From: Parietichytrium sp. I65-24A | Taxonomy: Eukaryota > Sar > Bigyra > Thraustochytrida > Thraustochytriidae | Direction: 5' to 3' | Length of the DNA stretch: 64,000 nt | NCBI GenBank assembly: GCA_012862575.1 | Contig: BLSF01000001.1 | Span: 744,001 to 808,000, forward strand | In this document: positions 41,416 to 49,226 of the stretch, in pieces | How positions within the stretch are numbered: position 1 is the first letter of the stretch | Layout of the letters: each line of letters begins with the position of its first letter | Position numbers and translations under genes: made by a program | The notes under the pieces: model-generated | Told to the model about the DNA's origin: nothing | Seen by the model: the letters and a program-made list of their open reading frames with translations, nothing else | The model's database searches: none

Positions 41416-41517
41416 GACGGGCTTACCTAGACTGGGAACAACTGACACCTTGTCTGGTAAGAGATACAATTCAACCCAGAAGTTAGAATTGTTAGAATTT
41501 GGAATTGCACAGACCCA

Positions 41518-41551
41518 GAACACAACACACAACACACAACACACAACACAC
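41518..41551 (+). repeat. AACACAC tandem repeat
   Basis: Four to five units of CACAACA type in the leader region of the RCC1-BTB gene. Confidence 0.85.
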
Positions 41552-41622
41552 CGCGCGCTCACACGGGAGAAGCGGAAAAGCAGAGAAGGGGCACGGACTG
41601 CGAGGCAGCGAAACTGAATTTT

Positions 41623-41703
41623 GGGAAGTTTGGGAAGTTTGGGAAGTTTGGGAATTTTGGGAAGTTTGGGAAGTTTGGGAAGTTTGGGAAGTTTGGGAAG
41701 CTT
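41623..41703 (+). repeat. 9-bp minisatellite (GGGAAGTTT), 9 units
   Basis: Nine units of GGGAAGTTT, one variant unit (GGGAATTTT) and a variant last one, end 35 bases before the ATG of the RCC1-BTB gene. The unit length is a multiple of three and the frame in line with the gene reads Trp-Glu-Val, so changes in copy number would not shift frame if translation began further upstream. Confidence 0.95.
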
Positions 41704-41738
41704 GTGCAGGTGGCCACGGGCCGAGGAGGTTAGCGGGA

Positions 41739-43588
41739 ATGCCGAGCCAGCAGGAGCGAGAGGACGGAGTGCGCCGCGAAGAACGGATTGACATGGATGA
41801 CCTCGATGGCGTGGATCTGATCAGCTGGGGACAGAATGCGTATGGCGAACTGGCGCACGGGGACGTGGCAGAGAGGTCCCGGCCGGAAGTGGTCAAGTTT
41901 TTTAAGCAACGAAGGCTCGTGCTCAAGCAGGTGGTCGCTGGGAACGAGCATACGGCTATTTTGACGGATGATGGCAACGTTTATTGCTGCGGGTACAATG
42001 ACAGCGGCCAGTGCGGTGTGGGGCATAGCTCACGCGTGCACTCCATGCAGATCGTTGAAGCACTCGAAGGAAAAAACGTCGTGCAGATCTATAGCGCGAA
42101 TGGCTGTGAACACATCTTGGCAGTGACGGAGGATGGGGCAGTTTACGCTTGGGGATACAACAGTCGCGGTCAGCTTGGAATCGCCGTTACCACACACACG
42201 AATGTGCCACGCCAGATTGACTCTCTCAGCACCAAGCAAGTTGTCAAGGTCGCCTGCTCTTATTACCACTCGCTCCTCAGCACCAGTGAGGACGAGTGCT
42301 ACTCTTTCGGGCGGAACGACTATGGGCAACTTGGCCTAGGGAGTAACACCGACTTCTTTTTGCCGGAGCGGATCAACGGCCTCCCACAAGGAATGGTGTT
42401 GAGCATCGCTTGCGGCCAGTATCACTCCGTTTTCTCCATTCACGGCTCCGGAGTTTTCAGCTGCGGGAAGAACGACTACGGCCAGTTGGGACTTCCCGGC
42501 AGCGAGCCTCGCATGCTTCCATCCTCTATCAGCGCGCCGCTCGACGCTACAACAGGAAATACCGTGACAAGTCTTTCTTGCGGCTACTATCACACCATCG
42601 CGCTCGTCGACTCTGGAGCTGTGTACTCGTGGGGTCGTAATGACCATGGGCAACTGGGTCACGGCAACAAAGAGAGTCTCAATCGCCCGACTTGCATCCT
42701 TGGCCTTCCTTCTCCCGCCACAGGCATTTCGAGCGGCTGCTATCACACTTTGATTTTGCTGGAAGACGGCACTGTGTTTGCCCAAGGGCGAAACAACCAT
42801 GTAAGTTGATTCCCGTCTCCTTTGTCTCGTTTGGTGTATTTCTCACGAAGTCATTTCTTGAAAATCTGTTGGTTGTGCAGGGGCAACTGGGAAACAGTCA
42901 CCCAGACGATTCACTCACCCCGAAACGTGTGGAGGCTCTTACTTCACATAAAGTTATTTCGATTGCAGCTGGATTCTATCACTCTTTGTGCCTCACGGAA
43001 GCTCCAGACTCGTGCCCGAGACTACCCAGCTCAACTCTGAGCGCTGATCTGAAAATCCTTCTAAATAACAGCAAGAGGAGCGATGTTGAATTTATGGTGG
43101 AGGGAAAACCTATCTATGCGCACCGCTGTATTATCATTGCACGATGCGAGCCGCTCGCTAAGATGCTCGAAGGGCCGATGCGCGAAAGCTGTGAAAAAGT
43201 GATCCCTCTTCCAGGACTCCAGTACAACGTGGTTCTCGGCTTGCTAGAGTTTTTGTATACCGATACTGTGGAGAAGCTGGACCCGGCACAAGTTGACATC
43301 AATTACGCTCTTGATCTGCTTGCCTTGGCAGATCAGTATCTTGTCGAGCGACTCAAGCGGCTGTGCGAAGTTGCCATCCAAACCTCGATCAACGTGGATA
43401 ATGTCGCTGAAATGTTCAAGACCGCGGACGAAAGGCAGGCTGTCGGGCTGAGAAGGCGCTGCTTTGAGTACATCTTGAAGAATTTCGGCAAGGTCATCGG
43501 AAGTGAAGGGTTCTCAAATCTTCCTCGCTGGCTTTTAAAAGAAATCTGCGATTGCGTTTCGGAGAAGGGAGTGACTGTGCGACCTTGA
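41739..43588 (+). CDS. RCC1-repeat and BTB-domain protein (RCBTB-like, 2 exons)
   Basis: Exon 1 is 41739-42800 and exon 2 is 42881-43588, joined across an 80-nt intron (GTAAGT...TGTGCAG), giving 589 residues. Exon 1 encodes RCC1 repeats of a seven-bladed propeller with cores such as LISWGQNAYGELAHGD, VYAWGYNSRGQLGI, CYSFGRNDYGQLGLG and VYSWGRNDHGQLGHGN. The splice restores RNNHGQLGNS. Exon 2 completes the propeller and adds a BTB domain (about 425-530: SDVEFMVEGKPIYAHRCIII, FLYTDTVEKL, ADQYLVERLKRLCE) with a BACK-like tail. This is the order of RCBTB1/2, probable substrate adaptors of CUL3 ubiquitin ligases. Start: first ATG after the 9-bp repeat. The frame upstream is open but repetitive. 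Confidence 0.92.
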
Positions 43589-43955: not shown

Positions 43956-44795
43956 ATGCCTCTCAGCGAAGCGGCTGACAACGTGGTGAAAGAGTACCTG
44001 CGCCATGAAGGCCTTGCGGACACCCTGGAGTGCTTTTCTGCTGAAAGGTTAGCTCGAATGTTTGATGCACAAAACACGCGAAAACTTGCTGGGAAAGCAG
44101 GCACAGAGTCCAAAGATGCTATTTGCGGTGCAGACGATGATGGCGAGAACAAACTAGACTTCACCAAACGGCAAGTCCAAGAGGCGGAGCTGTGGGAGGC
44201 GCTAGAGAGCAACAACCTCCACCGCTTCTTCGACTCTTGGAACGGATTCCAGGCGCGGAAAGATCTTGAGCGTTCGCTGACAGCGAGAGTGGAAACATTA
44301 ACCTTCAATCTCCATCTCCTGTTCTTTGTGCGTTCCCAAGGTGCGGAAGAAGAAAGGTCTTACTTTGAAGCTTTTCTGCACTCTCGAGGCGCAAAAATTG
44401 CAAAGAATGTTCCCCAGATGTATAAGTACTTTGGTCTAGTTCACGACGAGGACCCAGCGAGTAATGACCAGTTCAGCCATCTCTTTAGTGACGAGTGGAA
44501 AGATCAACTGGTGCAGGAACTCTCAGAGGTCCTGAGATACATGGACCTTGGCAAAGATGCGCTGCCGGAGCTCCTCCTATTGATCAAAGAGCGGCAGAAG
44601 TACGAGCAACTATTTCAGGAACGGTTTGAGAAGCAACAGGAGGAATTGGCGAAAGCGCAAGTCGCCGCAGAAAGATCTTTAGCGATCGCAGTCAAATTAT
44701 TAAAAGATATGTCAGAGGAAGTGAAGCTTGAGAGTTCATCTGTCTCAAAACTGAAAGAGCTCTTAGTGAATATAAAAAGAGACTTGAAAAGGTGA
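43956..44795 (+). CDS. LisH protein resembling the N-terminal part of WDR91
   Basis: 279 residues. The start, ADNVVKEYLRHEGLADTLEC, is a LisH motif. The middle, DLERSLTARVETLTFNLHLLF followed by FFVRSQGAEEERSYFEAF, and NDQFSHLFSDEWKDQLVQEL match the helical N-terminal region of WDR91. There a LisH and following helices come before a WD40 propeller. The protein here ends after a coiled coil (EERFEKQQEELAKAQVAAERSL-like, about 225-275) and lacks any WD40 repeats. In animals WDR91 limits PI3-kinase activity and serves endosome-to-lysosome conversion. A half-length relative could work with a separate propeller. The 3' end lies 66 bases from the convergent K+ channel gene. Confidence 0.78.
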   Translation: MPLSEAADNVVKEYLRHEGLADTLECFSAERLARMFDAQNTRKLAGKAGTESKDAICGADDDGENKLDFTKRQVQEAELWEALESNNLHRFFDSWNGFQARKDLERSLTARVETLTFNLHLLFFVRSQGAEEERSYFEAFLHSRGAKIAKNVPQMYKYFGLVHDEDPASNDQFSHLFSDEWKDQLVQELSEVLRYMDLGKDALPELLLLIKERQKYEQLFQERFEKQQEELAKAQVAAERSLAIAVKLLKDMSEEVKLESSSVSKLKELLVNIKRDLKR

Positions 44796-44861: not shown

Positions 44862-47800
44862 TCATCTTGTGATCTCAACGTCGTGGTCTTCTGGCTGCAT
44901 GGCTTCCAGCATTGTCGTTACTTCGACACTCGCCTTGAGACCAGTAGATGACAATCTCGTACCCGTTCCGAACCGGTCCGCGTTCGGCACGAATGGGTCC
45001 GACACCCCGAAGACTCTTTCTACGATGGACTTTTTGCGGTGTCGAAGATGCAAATTTGACAACTGTCGAACCAGGCCGGGAGCAGGACCGCCAGAGGCGG
45101 CACTTTCTTTCTCCTGAGGCGCCCCAGCGCTGCCCTCTGTGCCCTTTGTCGCTTGAAGGTTCATGGACCCGTTTCGAATAGCAGAGCGAATGCGATCGGC
45201 AAGACCTTTCGATTGCCGTGGCTGTGTAAGACTTTGAAGAACGGGGACGTCAAATTCATGCGGCGCTTTCAGAGACTCAATGTACTCTTCCGGAGACAGC
45301 TGTTTGCAGCCGTCGGGAAGTTCAGCCATGAGTTTCTTCGCAAGGTGCTGTTTGAGCTCAGAAGGCTTTTTGGGAATCTGCATCTTGGCGTCAGGCTTTA
45401 ACTCCAAGTTGTGGTATGCCCAGCGAGCCGTCAAGAGGCGCTCAAATTCGAGCACAATTAGCGTGAGCTCCGTGAGCAGCAGTCCAAAGTCAACTCGCTT
45501 CAAAAGTTTATACTGTCCGGAGGACAAAATTTTTTCCATCCTCTCCAATTTGGAGTCAATGGGATCCAGCAGTGCATACTTGCTAAGATCAAGATCGTCG
45601 TTCATGGTGTCATCGGCGAATCGCTTGCTCTTCATGCCATCATCGTACATTGCAAATGCTCTCTCCAAAACAATTTCGTGCTGCTTTGGCGGCTCCAGAA
45701 TTACCCTGCAGAGCCGGCTGACAAACTCCTCAAAGTTGGGAATTCCATAGTACTGGTCGAGCTGGAAACTCTCCAAAAGCATACAAATCCTTACGCGCGG
45801 CGGACACGCTCCGTTCTTTTGATTCAAATGCTCCTTCAGCTTATCTGTGGCCACAAGTTTCTTCCTGGGATGCATCTTTGCAGACGATTTTGCCAAAGTA
45901 GATTCGTTCTTCCACTCGAGGTTCGTTGCGAGAAGCTCCGCAAGAGGTAGGTACATAGGGAAGCCGCTGTGTAGTTTGAAACCCGAGCTCGAAGAGCTTG
46001 GCGATGCAGAGTTGCTGTTGGTAGAATCCTTCGACTGCCTGCGATGGGGGCTCATTACGCTCATCACGCTTTGCTGCTTGTGCAGAATCGAGTGCTTGTT
46101 TGAGTTCAAAAAGAAGCGCGCAGCGCCTTTTGTCGTCGGAGGCGTTGGAATCCCAAAATCTTCACTATTCGCAAATGATGAGGAAGACTCCTCTTTCATG
46201 TCTGCGTTGTCGCTGAGAAAGATGGAGGATAAAGTGGCCAAGACTGGATTGTACGGAATCGAAGCCACATCCATGGACTCTTTAAACGTCTCGAACCGCA
46301 CCCTGTTGTCCGATTTGAGCTGCTTAACTTTTTCTTCTGTGCTACCAAGCGTCTGGATGGCTTTTGTAACGGAACCAGAAATTGCACCAACCAACCCGAC
46401 CCCAAAGATCATCATGAACATTGCAATAATTCGCCCAACTTGGGATGCCGGAGCATAGTCGCCATATCCCACTGTTGTTACCGTCACCGCAGAAAACCAA
46501 AGGGACTTTGAGAACTCGCCCAGACCTGTAGGGTGCTCGAGAATTTCCACCTGCATGATAAGCGCAGAGCACATCAAGAGTAAGACAACCAGCAGCCCAG
46601 TCACGAAAATGTTGGGCAAGGTAATGATGAAGTACACGAGCTTGTCCTCCTGAAACATCCGCTTATAGACGCGCAAGATCCGAAAGAGGACAAAGATGCG
46701 TAAGTAAGACGCTACCCCGTAATAGATCCCGGCTCTGTACTCGGGAATGCCAGGCGGCACGGTTACAAGAGCCAGTACTTCGATCCAATGACTGACGAAG
46801 AAGCTTAACAGCTTTTGATCGGTCCAACGGAACTGCTCCACGACATTGAAAAAAAACCAACAAGAGATGTACACGTCAAACCAGCCGTAGGTGTGCCTGG
46901 TGTGTGTATCGATGCGGTTCTCCCCGTATGTAAAGTTGTATGTGAGAGGGAGATAGCCTGTTACAACGCTCATGACTGATAGAATGTCTAGCGTAAATTG
47001 GGTTTGGTCTGCAAAGAAGGAAAGTGTGGGATGTAACTGCTTGAGCATTTTGCGAACAACAGCCTCACAGGCTTTGGCGAAGCTTGGCATGAGCGAATTG
47101 AAGTCGTCCATATTGGACACCATTTGCTGTGCCAATGTCTTTAGACCAATCATCTCGTCGTTGTGCTGCTGAAACTGGAGGAACTCTCCTTTCTTCTCCT
47201 GGATACCAACCATTTGCACCGTTGGGTCGGTGAAAAGCGAGGTAGTTCTAGTCTTTAAAATTTGTGTTGAGCGGTGGCTTCGGGATTGTGTCAGAGGAGA
47301 CACTTTCTTGCTGGTCTCCGGCCCCATAATTTCTTCTTCGTCAAGGTTCTCCAACACATTGACCTCAGAAGGACGGCTAAGGCCAGTAAACCGTCGGCTG
47401 TAGCGAGAGCTCGGGAGTGATAAAATGGACGTCTCAGATATACGCTTTTGAATTCCCGCAGTGAGTAATGGTTTGAGTAGAACCTCTTCTTCCACGATTT
47501 CATACAGAGTGAAGAATGTGAAATAATAGCGTCCCGACGCGACGTTGATGAATATCAACAAGAAAAGAAAGTGTAGCACAAACAAAGTGTACAATACCAC
47601 ATTGTCGGAAGAGCAGGCGTGACTTGCTTCACTGCTAGCGCAACTTCGTCCGCTAAAGTCAATAAGATCCGAGTCGTCCCCAACGCCGTCGTTATCCGAG
47701 TCAAACTGCTCTAGCCCATCCTGTGGAAACTCGTCCTCAATGTCGAGGATCATGTCATTGTCCTTATCGATATCGATGATGGACAAGGTCCCATCCGAGC

Positions 47801-49226
47801 GAGCAAAAAGCACCAGGTCTCGAAAAATCGTAGCAGCAATGATCGTGCTTGTCTCCGACGTGTTGAAGGAGCAGCTTCGGGCCAATTCTCGATTTGGAGC
47901 AACGATGTCGTTCTCCATGTATACCTTCAACCTGTCGTCGACCCAGTAGAGGATTGACGTCTTCGATGCACTTTGAAATTGTAACTGCTGATCCTCATTG
48001 GTTTCCTCATGGATCGAAAAGCTCACGCAGTTGCTTAGAGCGCAACTCTGAAGAAAGCAGGCACTGCTTCCGTTCTTCACTCCGCACACGTGAACAAAGA
48101 TCATGTGCGACGTCAGAACGACGTTCCATAACCGCACTCTAGTTACGTTCTCTGGTGGTGAATACGACAAGACGGTCTCTTGCCATTCTGGCAAATACAT
48201 CAACTTTAGCTTGGTTTCAAAGCTCTCCTCCTCCGTCCAGCCCTCTCCAGCGAGAGAAATTCCATTTGGAAAATCGAATCGACCTTCTTCTGCGTTTATC
48301 ACAGGCTCCTGGGTGGTCTCGACCCAAAACGCGACGGTTCGATTTAAATCGGCACCAAACGTTTTGACACGCAACAGCACGTTGTGCTTATTCTCACTGG
48401 GGTCGCCCAAGGTCATAAATGCCTCAGTCTCCGTGTTGTAGAGCATGGAGCTTGTGCGTTTTATAGTAGCATAGTGCTCCGTGAAGGCGACATATTCCGT
48501 TGAGACGCTGGGTTTGAAACGGAGAGTGGTGTCTTCATCCATTGCGTCAAAGAGGCGAAGCAAGTATGCCGACGTTGATGGAATCATCTTTAGGGTGTCT
48601 GTGGCCCTGTTCTTGAAATATATGCTACTCGAATTGTAGCCAGCACCTTTGGTGGCTGATATATCTACCCACACCGCCTTGGCAAGATTCCCATTTGGGT
48701 TGTTCTCAACCCACAGCTGCGTCGGCGTCTGCCACACGTCAAAATAAAGTCTCACTAATGACTCCTCCTGTGTTGAGCGATACGCAATGGCAAGATCTTC
48801 TCTACTGGAGAAATCGCCAAGCGGCCACACTTTTTCCCTCATTTCGATTTGCTCAATTGGTGTGGCGAAGTTGTAGGTCCCATATCCAACAAGCACGAGC
48901 TCACGAATCGACTGTATCACACTGTCTCCAGCTTCCCCATCTATGTAAAATATTCTCTCACCGACCATGATGAGGCTTGACTCCATGTCGAAAGCCTCGC
49001 GGTCATTAATTTGTTTAAAACTTTTAGTGTCCACCACATGCTCCAACACTTTTGCCGGAAATCTATCAGGATCGACCGTTCGCAAATAGTCGCAAAAGCA
49101 GACACTGTTTCCAGCACAGGGCTGGAGCCTCGCCACCTCTCCGCCGCCAATTTGCGCCGCTCCAATGACAAGCAAGAGACTCTTCCATATCCGCCCCATT
49201 CGCGTTGCGCTTCGTTTTGGTCGCAT
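44862..49226 (-). CDS. Voltage-gated-type K+ channel with very large extracellular N-terminal part
   Basis: 1454 residues, single exon. A signal-like segment (about 12-28) precedes roughly 510 residues of presumed extracellular protein with several N-glycosylation sites and cysteines. This ends in DIDKDNDMILDIEDEF and FDSDNDGVGDDSD (about 486-520), Asp-rich motifs like thrombospondin type-3 calcium repeats. A first membrane helix follows at about 543-562. After a cytosolic stretch come S1-S6 (about 742-955). S4 has spaced Arg (SYLRIFVLFRILRVYKRMF), and the pore holds the K+ filter TVTTVGYGDYAP (filter at 918-923). About 500 cytosolic residues follow, with no recognised cyclic-nucleotide or ankyrin domain. 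The pore identity is secure. The ectodomain fold is unknown. Confidence 0.9.
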   Translation of the reverse strand: MRPKRSATRMGRIWKSLLLVIGAAQIGGGEVARLQPCAGNSVCFCDYLRTVDPDRFPAKVLEHVVDTKSFKQINDREAFDMESSLIMVGERIFYIDGEAGDSVIQSIRELVLVGYGTYNFATPIEQIEMREKVWPLGDFSSREDLAIAYRSTQEESLVRLYFDVWQTPTQLWVENNPNGNLAKAVWVDISATKGAGYNSSSIYFKNRATDTLKMIPSTSAYLLRLFDAMDEDTTLRFKPSVSTEYVAFTEHYATIKRTSSMLYNTETEAFMTLGDPSENKHNVLLRVKTFGADLNRTVAFWVETTQEPVINAEEGRFDFPNGISLAGEGWTEEESFETKLKLMYLPEWQETVLSYSPPENVTRVRLWNVVLTSHMIFVHVCGVKNGSSACFLQSCALSNCVSFSIHEETNEDQQLQFQSASKTSILYWVDDRLKVYMENDIVAPNRELARSCSFNTSETSTIIAATIFRDLVLFARSDGTLSIIDIDKDNDMILDIEDEFPQDGLEQFDSDNDGVGDDSDLIDFSGRSCASSEASHACSSDNVVLYTLFVLHFLFLLIFINVASGRYYFTFFTLYEIVEEEVLLKPLLTAGIQKRISETSILSLPSSRYSRRFTGLSRPSEVNVLENLDEEEIMGPETSKKVSPLTQSRSHRSTQILKTRTTSLFTDPTVQMVGIQEKKGEFLQFQQHNDEMIGLKTLAQQMVSNMDDFNSLMPSFAKACEAVVRKMLKQLHPTLSFFADQTQFTLDILSVMSVVTGYLPLTYNFTYGENRIDTHTRHTYGWFDVYISCWFFFNVVEQFRWTDQKLLSFFVSHWIEVLALVTVPPGIPEYRAGIYYGVASYLRIFVLFRILRVYKRMFQEDKLVYFIITLPNIFVTGLLVVLLLMCSALIMQVEILEHPTGLGEFSKSLWFSAVTVTTVGYGDYAPASQVGRIIAMFMMIFGVGLVGAISGSVTKAIQTLGSTEEKVKQLKSDNRVRFETFKESMDVASIPYNPVLATLSSIFLSDNADMKEESSSSFANSEDFGIPTPPTTKGAARFFLNSNKHSILHKQQSVMSVMSPHRRQSKDSTNSNSASPSSSSSGFKLHSGFPMYLPLAELLATNLEWKNESTLAKSSAKMHPRKKLVATDKLKEHLNQKNGACPPRVRICMLLESFQLDQYYGIPNFEEFVSRLCRVILEPPKQHEIVLERAFAMYDDGMKSKRFADDTMNDDLDLSKYALLDPIDSKLERMEKILSSGQYKLLKRVDFGLLLTELTLIVLEFERLLTARWAYHNLELKPDAKMQIPKKPSELKQHLAKKLMAELPDGCKQLSPEEYIESLKAPHEFDVPVLQSLTQPRQSKGLADRIRSAIRNGSMNLQATKGTEGSAGAPQEKESAASGGPAPGLVRQLSNLHLRHRKKSIVERVFGVSDPFVPNADRFGTGTRLSSTGLKASVEVTTMLEAMQPEDHDVEITR

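Follow-up and report, generated by a model that had tools for sequence, protein, structure and literature searches.

Large ectodomains on voltage-gated (Kv) and BK potassium channels are, to our knowledge, known as separate auxiliary subunits. DPP6 and LRRC26, each with a single membrane helix and a large ectodomain, are described as acting on voltage sensors, DPP6 on those of Kv4 channels (Kv4.2; PMC8566240) and LRRC26 on those of Slo1 (PMC10950684). For DPP-type subunits it is the helix and a short inner segment that are reported to modulate the channel (PMC8566240, PMC10950684), and the ectodomain of LRRC26 is described as making no channel contact, initial deletion experiments having suggested that it was required (PMC10950684). 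Slo1 (KCa1.1) itself has seven helices, S0 to S6, and an N-terminus that lies outside (PMC3283738, PMC10950684). A survey of 262 eukaryotic homologues describes mostly an order of six transmembrane helices (6TM), or of 6TM with a cyclic-nucleotide-binding domain (6TM-CNBD), together with tandem forms, and a word search of its main text did not find ‘extracellular’ (PMC7576140); similarly, ‘propeller’, ‘thrombospondin’ and ‘fused’ were not found by word search in a tree-of-life survey of ion channels (PMC12485921). Judged by titles and the beginnings of abstracts, no potassium channel with a fused ectodomain is apparent among the open-access papers matched by literature searches, which is weak evidence of absence. 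A 64,000-nucleotide stretch of the thraustochytrid Parietichytrium sp. I65-24A (contig BLSF01000001.1, positions 744,001 to 808,000; hereafter the window) contains, on its minus strand at 44862-49226, an open frame in which a large ectodomain, a pair of Asp-rich motifs and one extra membrane helix (TM0) precede S1 of a Kv-type channel.

This frame runs from ATG to stop without interruption over 1454 residues and fills the interval exactly, as compared with a longest stop-free stretch of 372 codons when the mononucleotides of the whole window were shuffled 20 times. In all five segments of the gene the codon log-likelihood is above zero in the coding frame and below zero in the other five frames, the training set being 17 other long open reading frames (ORFs) of the window that are not all proven genes. 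The channel core is recognized by Pfam as Ion_trans (51.7 bits, cut-off 25; E 8.9e-14) and Ion_trans_2 (58.1 bits, cut-off 22.5; E 8.3e-16), contains the potassium selectivity filter TVGYGD and carries the S4 charges R843, R849, R852, K855 and R856. By filter, S4 and Pfam matches the window protein is classed as a voltage-gated-type potassium channel, in agreement with an earlier sequence-only reading of this DNA, and a potassium-selective, voltage-dependent current is predicted. Among solved structures, the nearest by sequence are those of prokaryotic and animal potassium or cation channels, with matches over the pore and some of the voltage sensor. The CNBD (PF00027) was not found at E ≤10 anywhere in the protein, and neither RCK nor BK_channel_a matched its 495-residue C-terminus at E ≤1, whereas five channels of Slo type from this genome do match them; on these results and on the position of the protein in the channel tree (see below), its identity as a CNBD or RCK channel was rejected. 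Within this C-terminus lies a conserved region (Table 1) that matches no known family and forms helices in a single-sequence AlphaFold model of low confidence (predicted local distance difference test, pLDDT, 41.4). Searches with it in IMG/VR and in a set of prokaryote genomes, neither of which includes eukaryote genomes, gave 38 and 69 pattern matches, respectively, none of them confirmed. The alignment also brought a degenerate C-linker following S6 into consideration.

A paralogue is encoded on another contig of the genome (C89, L009:3142-7191, minus strand), likewise in a single frame, of 1349 residues from the first ATG, with 28% identity in alignment. It repeats the order found in the window protein, namely signal-like segment, ectodomain, Asp-rich pair, TM0, linker, channel and C-terminus, and the two sequences establish the anatomy and the conservation of this order. 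A search of the 42.5 Mb genome with the whole window protein detected 14 places, among which, besides the gene itself, only C89 matches the ectodomain or the C-terminal region; the ectodomain with TM0 detected two (the gene itself and C89), and the paralogue as query nine, only the two family loci matching outside the channel core. The two channel cores are identical at 68 of 218 positions (31%, z 39.8) and have the S4 string FRI[LI]R[VL]Y[KR]R in common, the C-terminal regions at 44 of 138 (z 25.4), and the motif regions at 19 of 40 (48%, z 11.5), the motifs being spaced by 22 residues in both proteins. Residues 330-435 of the ectodomain can also be aligned (29/104 identical, z 6.0, with a z of 9.1 for residues 330-480 compared alone), and the linker between TM0 and S1 shows no conservation (z -0.5). 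The strong divergence of the two copies, both in one genome, suggests that this design is of some age in the lineage.

Ahead of S1 the window protein has one strong additional hydrophobic helix, with a hydropathy peak of 2.47 at residues 542-560 and a counterpart in the paralogue, which bears out the extra helix of the earlier reading. Because S1 must begin inside and one helix precedes the channel, the N-terminus is probably outside and the N-terminal half probably extracellular, as had also been proposed; the support for an S0-like helix with an outside N-terminus consists of hydropathy, charge and topological logic. Both ectodomains are strongly acidic, with 43 Lys and Arg versus 81 Asp and Glu in the window protein (residues 31-541) and 51 versus 94 in the paralogue, the remaining parts being near neutral, and Cys residues are denser in them (1.96 and 1.49 per 100 residues, respectively) than in the linker and C-terminus. 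The long glycosylatable ectodomain put forward earlier is present, at about 510 residues, but its five N-glycosylation sequons against 3.9 expected from composition amount to no real enrichment; the paralogue ectodomain has seven, with 3.9 expected.

Shortly before TM0 the ectodomain carries two motifs of the form DxDxDxxxDxxD, DKDNDMILDIED at residue 487 and DSDNDGVGDDSD at residue 509. The second is an exact Dx[DN]xDG-type loop, and the first is without the G, having M (window protein) or D (paralogue) at the position where G is usual. No such pair within 40 residues occurred in 20,000 shuffles of residues 31-541, on which ground a chance origin was rejected, and only one of the 20 ATG-initiated ORFs of at least 300 residues in the window contains one. 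The description of this motif as TSP3-like is apt for the motif itself, judging by its sequence pattern, but does not extend to a domain, as Pfam TSP_3 reaches only 8.2 bits in the window protein and 15.9 in the paralogue (cut-off 25). EF-hand_1 scored 8.6 and 10.1 bits on two cuts of the window motif piece, slightly more than TSP_3 and far below its own cut-off, and a longer cut of the same piece gave no match in this comparison. Searching the genome with the TSP3_bac profile (PF18884) did not return the motif locus among the matches, and the TSP_3 profile (PF02412) matched nothing in this genome or in the control genomes and is uninformative. Two weak NCBIfam matches were obtained for the ectodomain, of which one, to a myxobacterial TSP3 protein, covers the motif (E 0.15).

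The ectodomain as a whole matched no Pfam family at E ≤1. A profile of the two ectodomains found no PDB sequence at E ≤10, and in the IMG/VR and prokaryote collections it gave 90 and 123 pattern matches, respectively, with none confirmed. Used singly, the ectodomains gave two PDB matches for the window protein (best E 0.27) and four for the paralogue (best E 0.26), to molecules without evident relation, and the one match of the motif peptide, a leucine-rich-repeat protein (E 0.013), is taken as chance. Inspection by eye of the paralogue ectodomain suggested repeated strand-loop-strand stretches resembling beta-propellers, and a model built from six hairpins picked in this way gave one 6.1-bit match in the window protein (none of 500 shuffles as high), which lies outside the expected places; a beta-propeller ectodomain is not claimed.

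Like Slo1, the window protein has a potassium filter and S4, and probably also seven helices and an outside N-terminus. It differs from Slo1 in its linker of about 173 residues between TM0 and S1 and in its ectodomain of about 510, the outside N-terminus of Slo1 being short, and the cytosolic RCK domains of Slo1/BK were not found in it. The sequence-only reading had known of no described channel class with this order; what is unusual against known channels is the large ectodomain without RCK domains rather than the seventh helix itself, since a seventh helix with the N-terminus outside is known in KCa1.1/Slo1 (PMC3283738, PMC10950684). Eukaryotic Kv-like 6TM channels share with the window protein the Ion_trans domain, S4 charges, TVGYG filter and lack of a CNBD. 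Kv4 with DPP6 or DPP10 and Slo1 with LRRC26 likewise bring a large ectodomain and one helix to a voltage-sensing potassium channel subunit, although in these complexes the module is a separate auxiliary protein, whereas in the window protein it is covalent and N-terminal; furthermore, the ectodomain of DPP6 is described as C-terminal to its own helix (PMC10950684) and that of the window protein is N-terminal to TM0. The paired DxDxDxxxDxxD motifs with 22-residue spacing recall thrombospondin type 3 repeats and Dx[DN]xDG loops, from which the window protein is set apart by its score below the TSP_3 cut-off, by having only two motif copies and by the lack of a convincing match to a solved structure. 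A channel-type module in an unusual fusion with a signalling domain is also described in the voltage-sensor-cyclase proteins of Phytophthora (PMC12223298).

The analogy with DPP6-Kv4 and LRRC26-Slo1 suggests that the window protein may be a Kv-type channel that carries, as a built-in outer module, the counterpart of an auxiliary subunit of the DPP6 or LRRC26 kind, its putative calcium loops serving as a structural stalk; of the readings considered this is the likeliest, with chances that we judge to be about even. In this reading a potassium-selective subunit with its N-terminus outside has an ectodomain, a stalk that would bind Ca2+ and one membrane helix fused ahead of S1, and with four subunits per pore four ectodomains would stand above the pore. 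The two DxDxDxxxDxxD loops would bind Ca2+ and make the stalk that joins the ectodomain to the membrane more rigid, and TM0 would lie beside the voltage sensor, as do the single helices of DPP6 (with Kv4) and LRRC26 (with Slo1). Whatever acts on the ectodomain, be it a ligand, a partner or a force, could then shift the voltage range of opening and hence the potassium current; calcium binding, contact with the voltage sensor and any effect of the module on gating are what we infer for the window protein. A stronger form, in which binding of the ectodomain to an external ligand or surface directly moves the voltage sensor via the calcium-stiffened stalk and TM0, is possible but doubtful. If true, such a receptor-type Kv channel would be a class with receptor, auxiliary subunit and pore in one chain, and external contact or chemistry would become membrane potential through one protein. 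Irrespective of the exact role, covalent attachment of an ectodomain means fixed stoichiometry and makes the effect of an ectodomain and one helix on the voltage sensor accessible by simple truncation, and the fusion may hint at a coupling of outside cues to membrane potential in protists without nervous systems.

Several other explanations were weighed. An artefact, in the form of two genes in accidental frame or of an assembly error, would sit well with the unconserved linker between TM0 and S1, but is scarcely credible in view of the continuous coding signal and of the 28%-identical paralogue, on another contig, with the same single-frame fusion. Because this distant paralogue keeps the order, the motif pair and its spacing, an artefactual fusion is improbable; an accidental frame was rejected on the paralogue’s order together with the codon signal, and the same evidence upholds the earlier proposal of one gene with a fused order. 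The ectodomain could alternatively be an anchor or trafficking module that ties the channel to wall, matrix or partner and leaves gating unchanged, the calcium loops keeping it folded. The fast divergence of the distal ectodomain between the copies, with the stalk motif kept, and the weak conservation of TM0 are both consistent with such an anchor, although targeting does not require direct fusion to the pore subunit and the order conserved in both copies would fit a gating role as well, and on the whole we regard an anchor as unlikely. External Ca2+ is usually too high and steady for sensing by loops of this type, which counts against the paired Asp motifs being an external-calcium sensor that opens or closes the channel. 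The conservation of the pair (19/40 in the segment) beyond chance would suit a sensor, and Dx[DN]xDG loops are described as binding Ca2+ in many families (PMC3123361); such a sensor is nevertheless rather improbable, because bound calcium at these loops is described as commonly having a structural or folding role (PMC3123361), and the first motif departs from the usual G in both proteins. The earlier suggestion that the motif makes the channel sensitive to extracellular calcium or to matrix contacts is speculative. A signal peptide and an outside N-terminus would suit lumenal as well as surface exposure, as expected of a channel of an internal membrane (vacuole, acidic store or contractile vacuole) with the ectodomain in the lumen, a location considered quite improbable.

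A number of observations weigh against a channel with a built-in auxiliary module. TM0 is poorly conserved (7/27 identical, z 2.4), an observation that lends no support to its being in tight, conserved contact with the voltage sensor, and the distal ectodomain at residues 30-329 is only marginally alignable between the copies (z 3.1, with 7 of 500 shuffles as high). The role of the ectodomain could not be read from its fold, the single-sequence AlphaFold model being uninformative (pLDDT 33.5), or from a profile match, none of those obtained being convincing. The signal peptide of the earlier reading is plausible, with a clear hydrophobic signal-like segment (hydropathy up to 2.04) in the paralogue N-terminus MRPWTRLLTALLVLCELGSLVAFV, but is modest in the window protein, whose first 60 residues contain no 19-residue stretch above 1.4. 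Lastly, the supposedly cytosolic linker of the paralogue has four sequons against 1.1 expected, a number that is no especially good fit to the cytosol yet permits a cytosolic linker.

A PF07885 search of the genome gave 46 matches, counted as 31 open frames, two of which are the window protein and its paralogue; 26 of the other 29 were fetched and three were not read, and in 19 of the 29 the helices were located by computation. Of these 19, all but L012, probably a two-repeat channel, have their first strong helix no more than 230 residues ahead of the filter; in the window protein this distance is 376 residues, and 541 residues precede its first helix. A lone helix so far from the 6TM block was seen in none of the 19, by a threshold that is blind to a modest signal peptide, that of the window protein included. 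A maximum-likelihood tree was made of 19 channel cores, comprising the pair and 17 of the 19 other channels (the short L014 and L030 were left out) and without L031, six further loci or outside reference channels. The window protein and the paralogue group together at 99/96 and lie outside the CNBD (99/97), Slo (95/96) and EF-hand Kv (100/99) groups; the pair joins the side of the CNBD branch, which consists of seven CNBD rows and three rows without clear group, at 87/82, below the starred level.

Table 1. Features of the channel gene, with positions in the window
Feature	Position	Strand	Evidence
Whole open frame, 1454 residues	44862..49226	-	Frame, shuffles, codon signal
Probable signal peptide, residues 1-29, h-region approximately SLLLVIGAAQ	49140..49226	-	By eye; cleavage site not from a predictor
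Ectodomain, residues 30-541, strongly acidic, 10 Cys, 5 sequons	47604..49139	-	Composition, profile searches
Paired DxDxDxxxDxxD motifs, residues 485-520, cores at 487 and 509	47667..47774	-	Alignment, shuffles; shortly before TM0
Extra membrane helix TM0 (S0-like), residues 542-562	47541..47603	-	Hydropathy; helix at corresponding place in paralogue
Linker, residues 563-735, presumed cytosolic	47022..47540	-	Not conserved in paralogue (z -0.5)
Voltage sensor and pore S1-S6, residues 736-960	46347..47021	-	Pfam, solved relatives, paralogue alignment
S4 charges, residues 843-856	46659..46700	-	Sequence, paralogue alignment
TVGYGD potassium selectivity filter, residues 918-923	46458..46475	-	Pfam, sequence, paralogue alignment
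Conserved C-terminal region, residues 1143-1285	45372..45800	-	Paralogue alignment; helices in low-confidence model

Several other potassium channels of this genome have architectures of their own. Channels of Slo/BK type that contain RCK domains number at least five (L015, L016, L017, L024 and L025). Two channels (L013:2462-4084 and L021:2504-4591, both plus strand) have N-terminal EF-hands over the Pfam cut-off, and a third (L023:1863-4700, minus strand) has a C-terminal EF-hand at 26.5 bits, below the cut-off of 30. The frame L012:1811-6307 (plus strand; 1498 residues) contains two Ion_trans stretches and a cyclic-nucleotide-binding domain, the probable make-up of a tandem channel with two repeats. 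Four proteins, all in single frames and 2264-2727 residues long (L037:1604-8944, L038:1316-9499 and L039:1370-8164, plus strand, and L040:1043-8635, minus strand) each contain three or four potassium-type filters, detected by pattern, and three or four Ion_trans_2 stretches, with four cyclic-nucleotide-binding stretches in L040 and one in each of the other three. Four-repeat CNGK channels are described from metazoans and choanoflagellates, and two-repeat forms from other groups (PMC7576140); judged by their domain content, the four proteins are apparently four-repeat tandem potassium channels in a non-opisthokont. Two of them end in an RGS domain (L037, residues 2314-2428, E 8.1e-15; L038, residues 2463-2575, E 4.2e-12), which would link G-protein signalling to a potassium channel in one chain; none of the papers matched by a literature search for an RGS domain on such channels contains ‘RGS domain’.

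In the window, the channel gene is convergent with a plus-strand frame at 43956-44795, with 66 bases between the two stop codons, so that the two transcripts may overlap at their 3′ ends. At 41499-43588, also on the plus strand, inspection by eye showed an RCC1-repeat frame (41499-42809) that overlaps a BTB-type frame (42692-43588) in a different reading frame, possibly a single RCC1-BTB gene that contains an intron or has undergone a frame shift. The genome as a whole gave no match to light-harvesting families, which leaves an algal origin without support, and none to PUFA synthase over the cut-off, and its EF-1alpha lacks the insertion characteristic of opisthokonts; these results point to a eukaryote outside the opisthokonts that is probably non-photosynthetic. 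Elsewhere in the genome, a single frame of 5583 residues (G000:C66:8562-22499, plus strand) matches the PfaA model seven times, with four of the matches in its N-terminal synthase part and three further along, and may encode a large modular polyketide or fatty-acid synthase.

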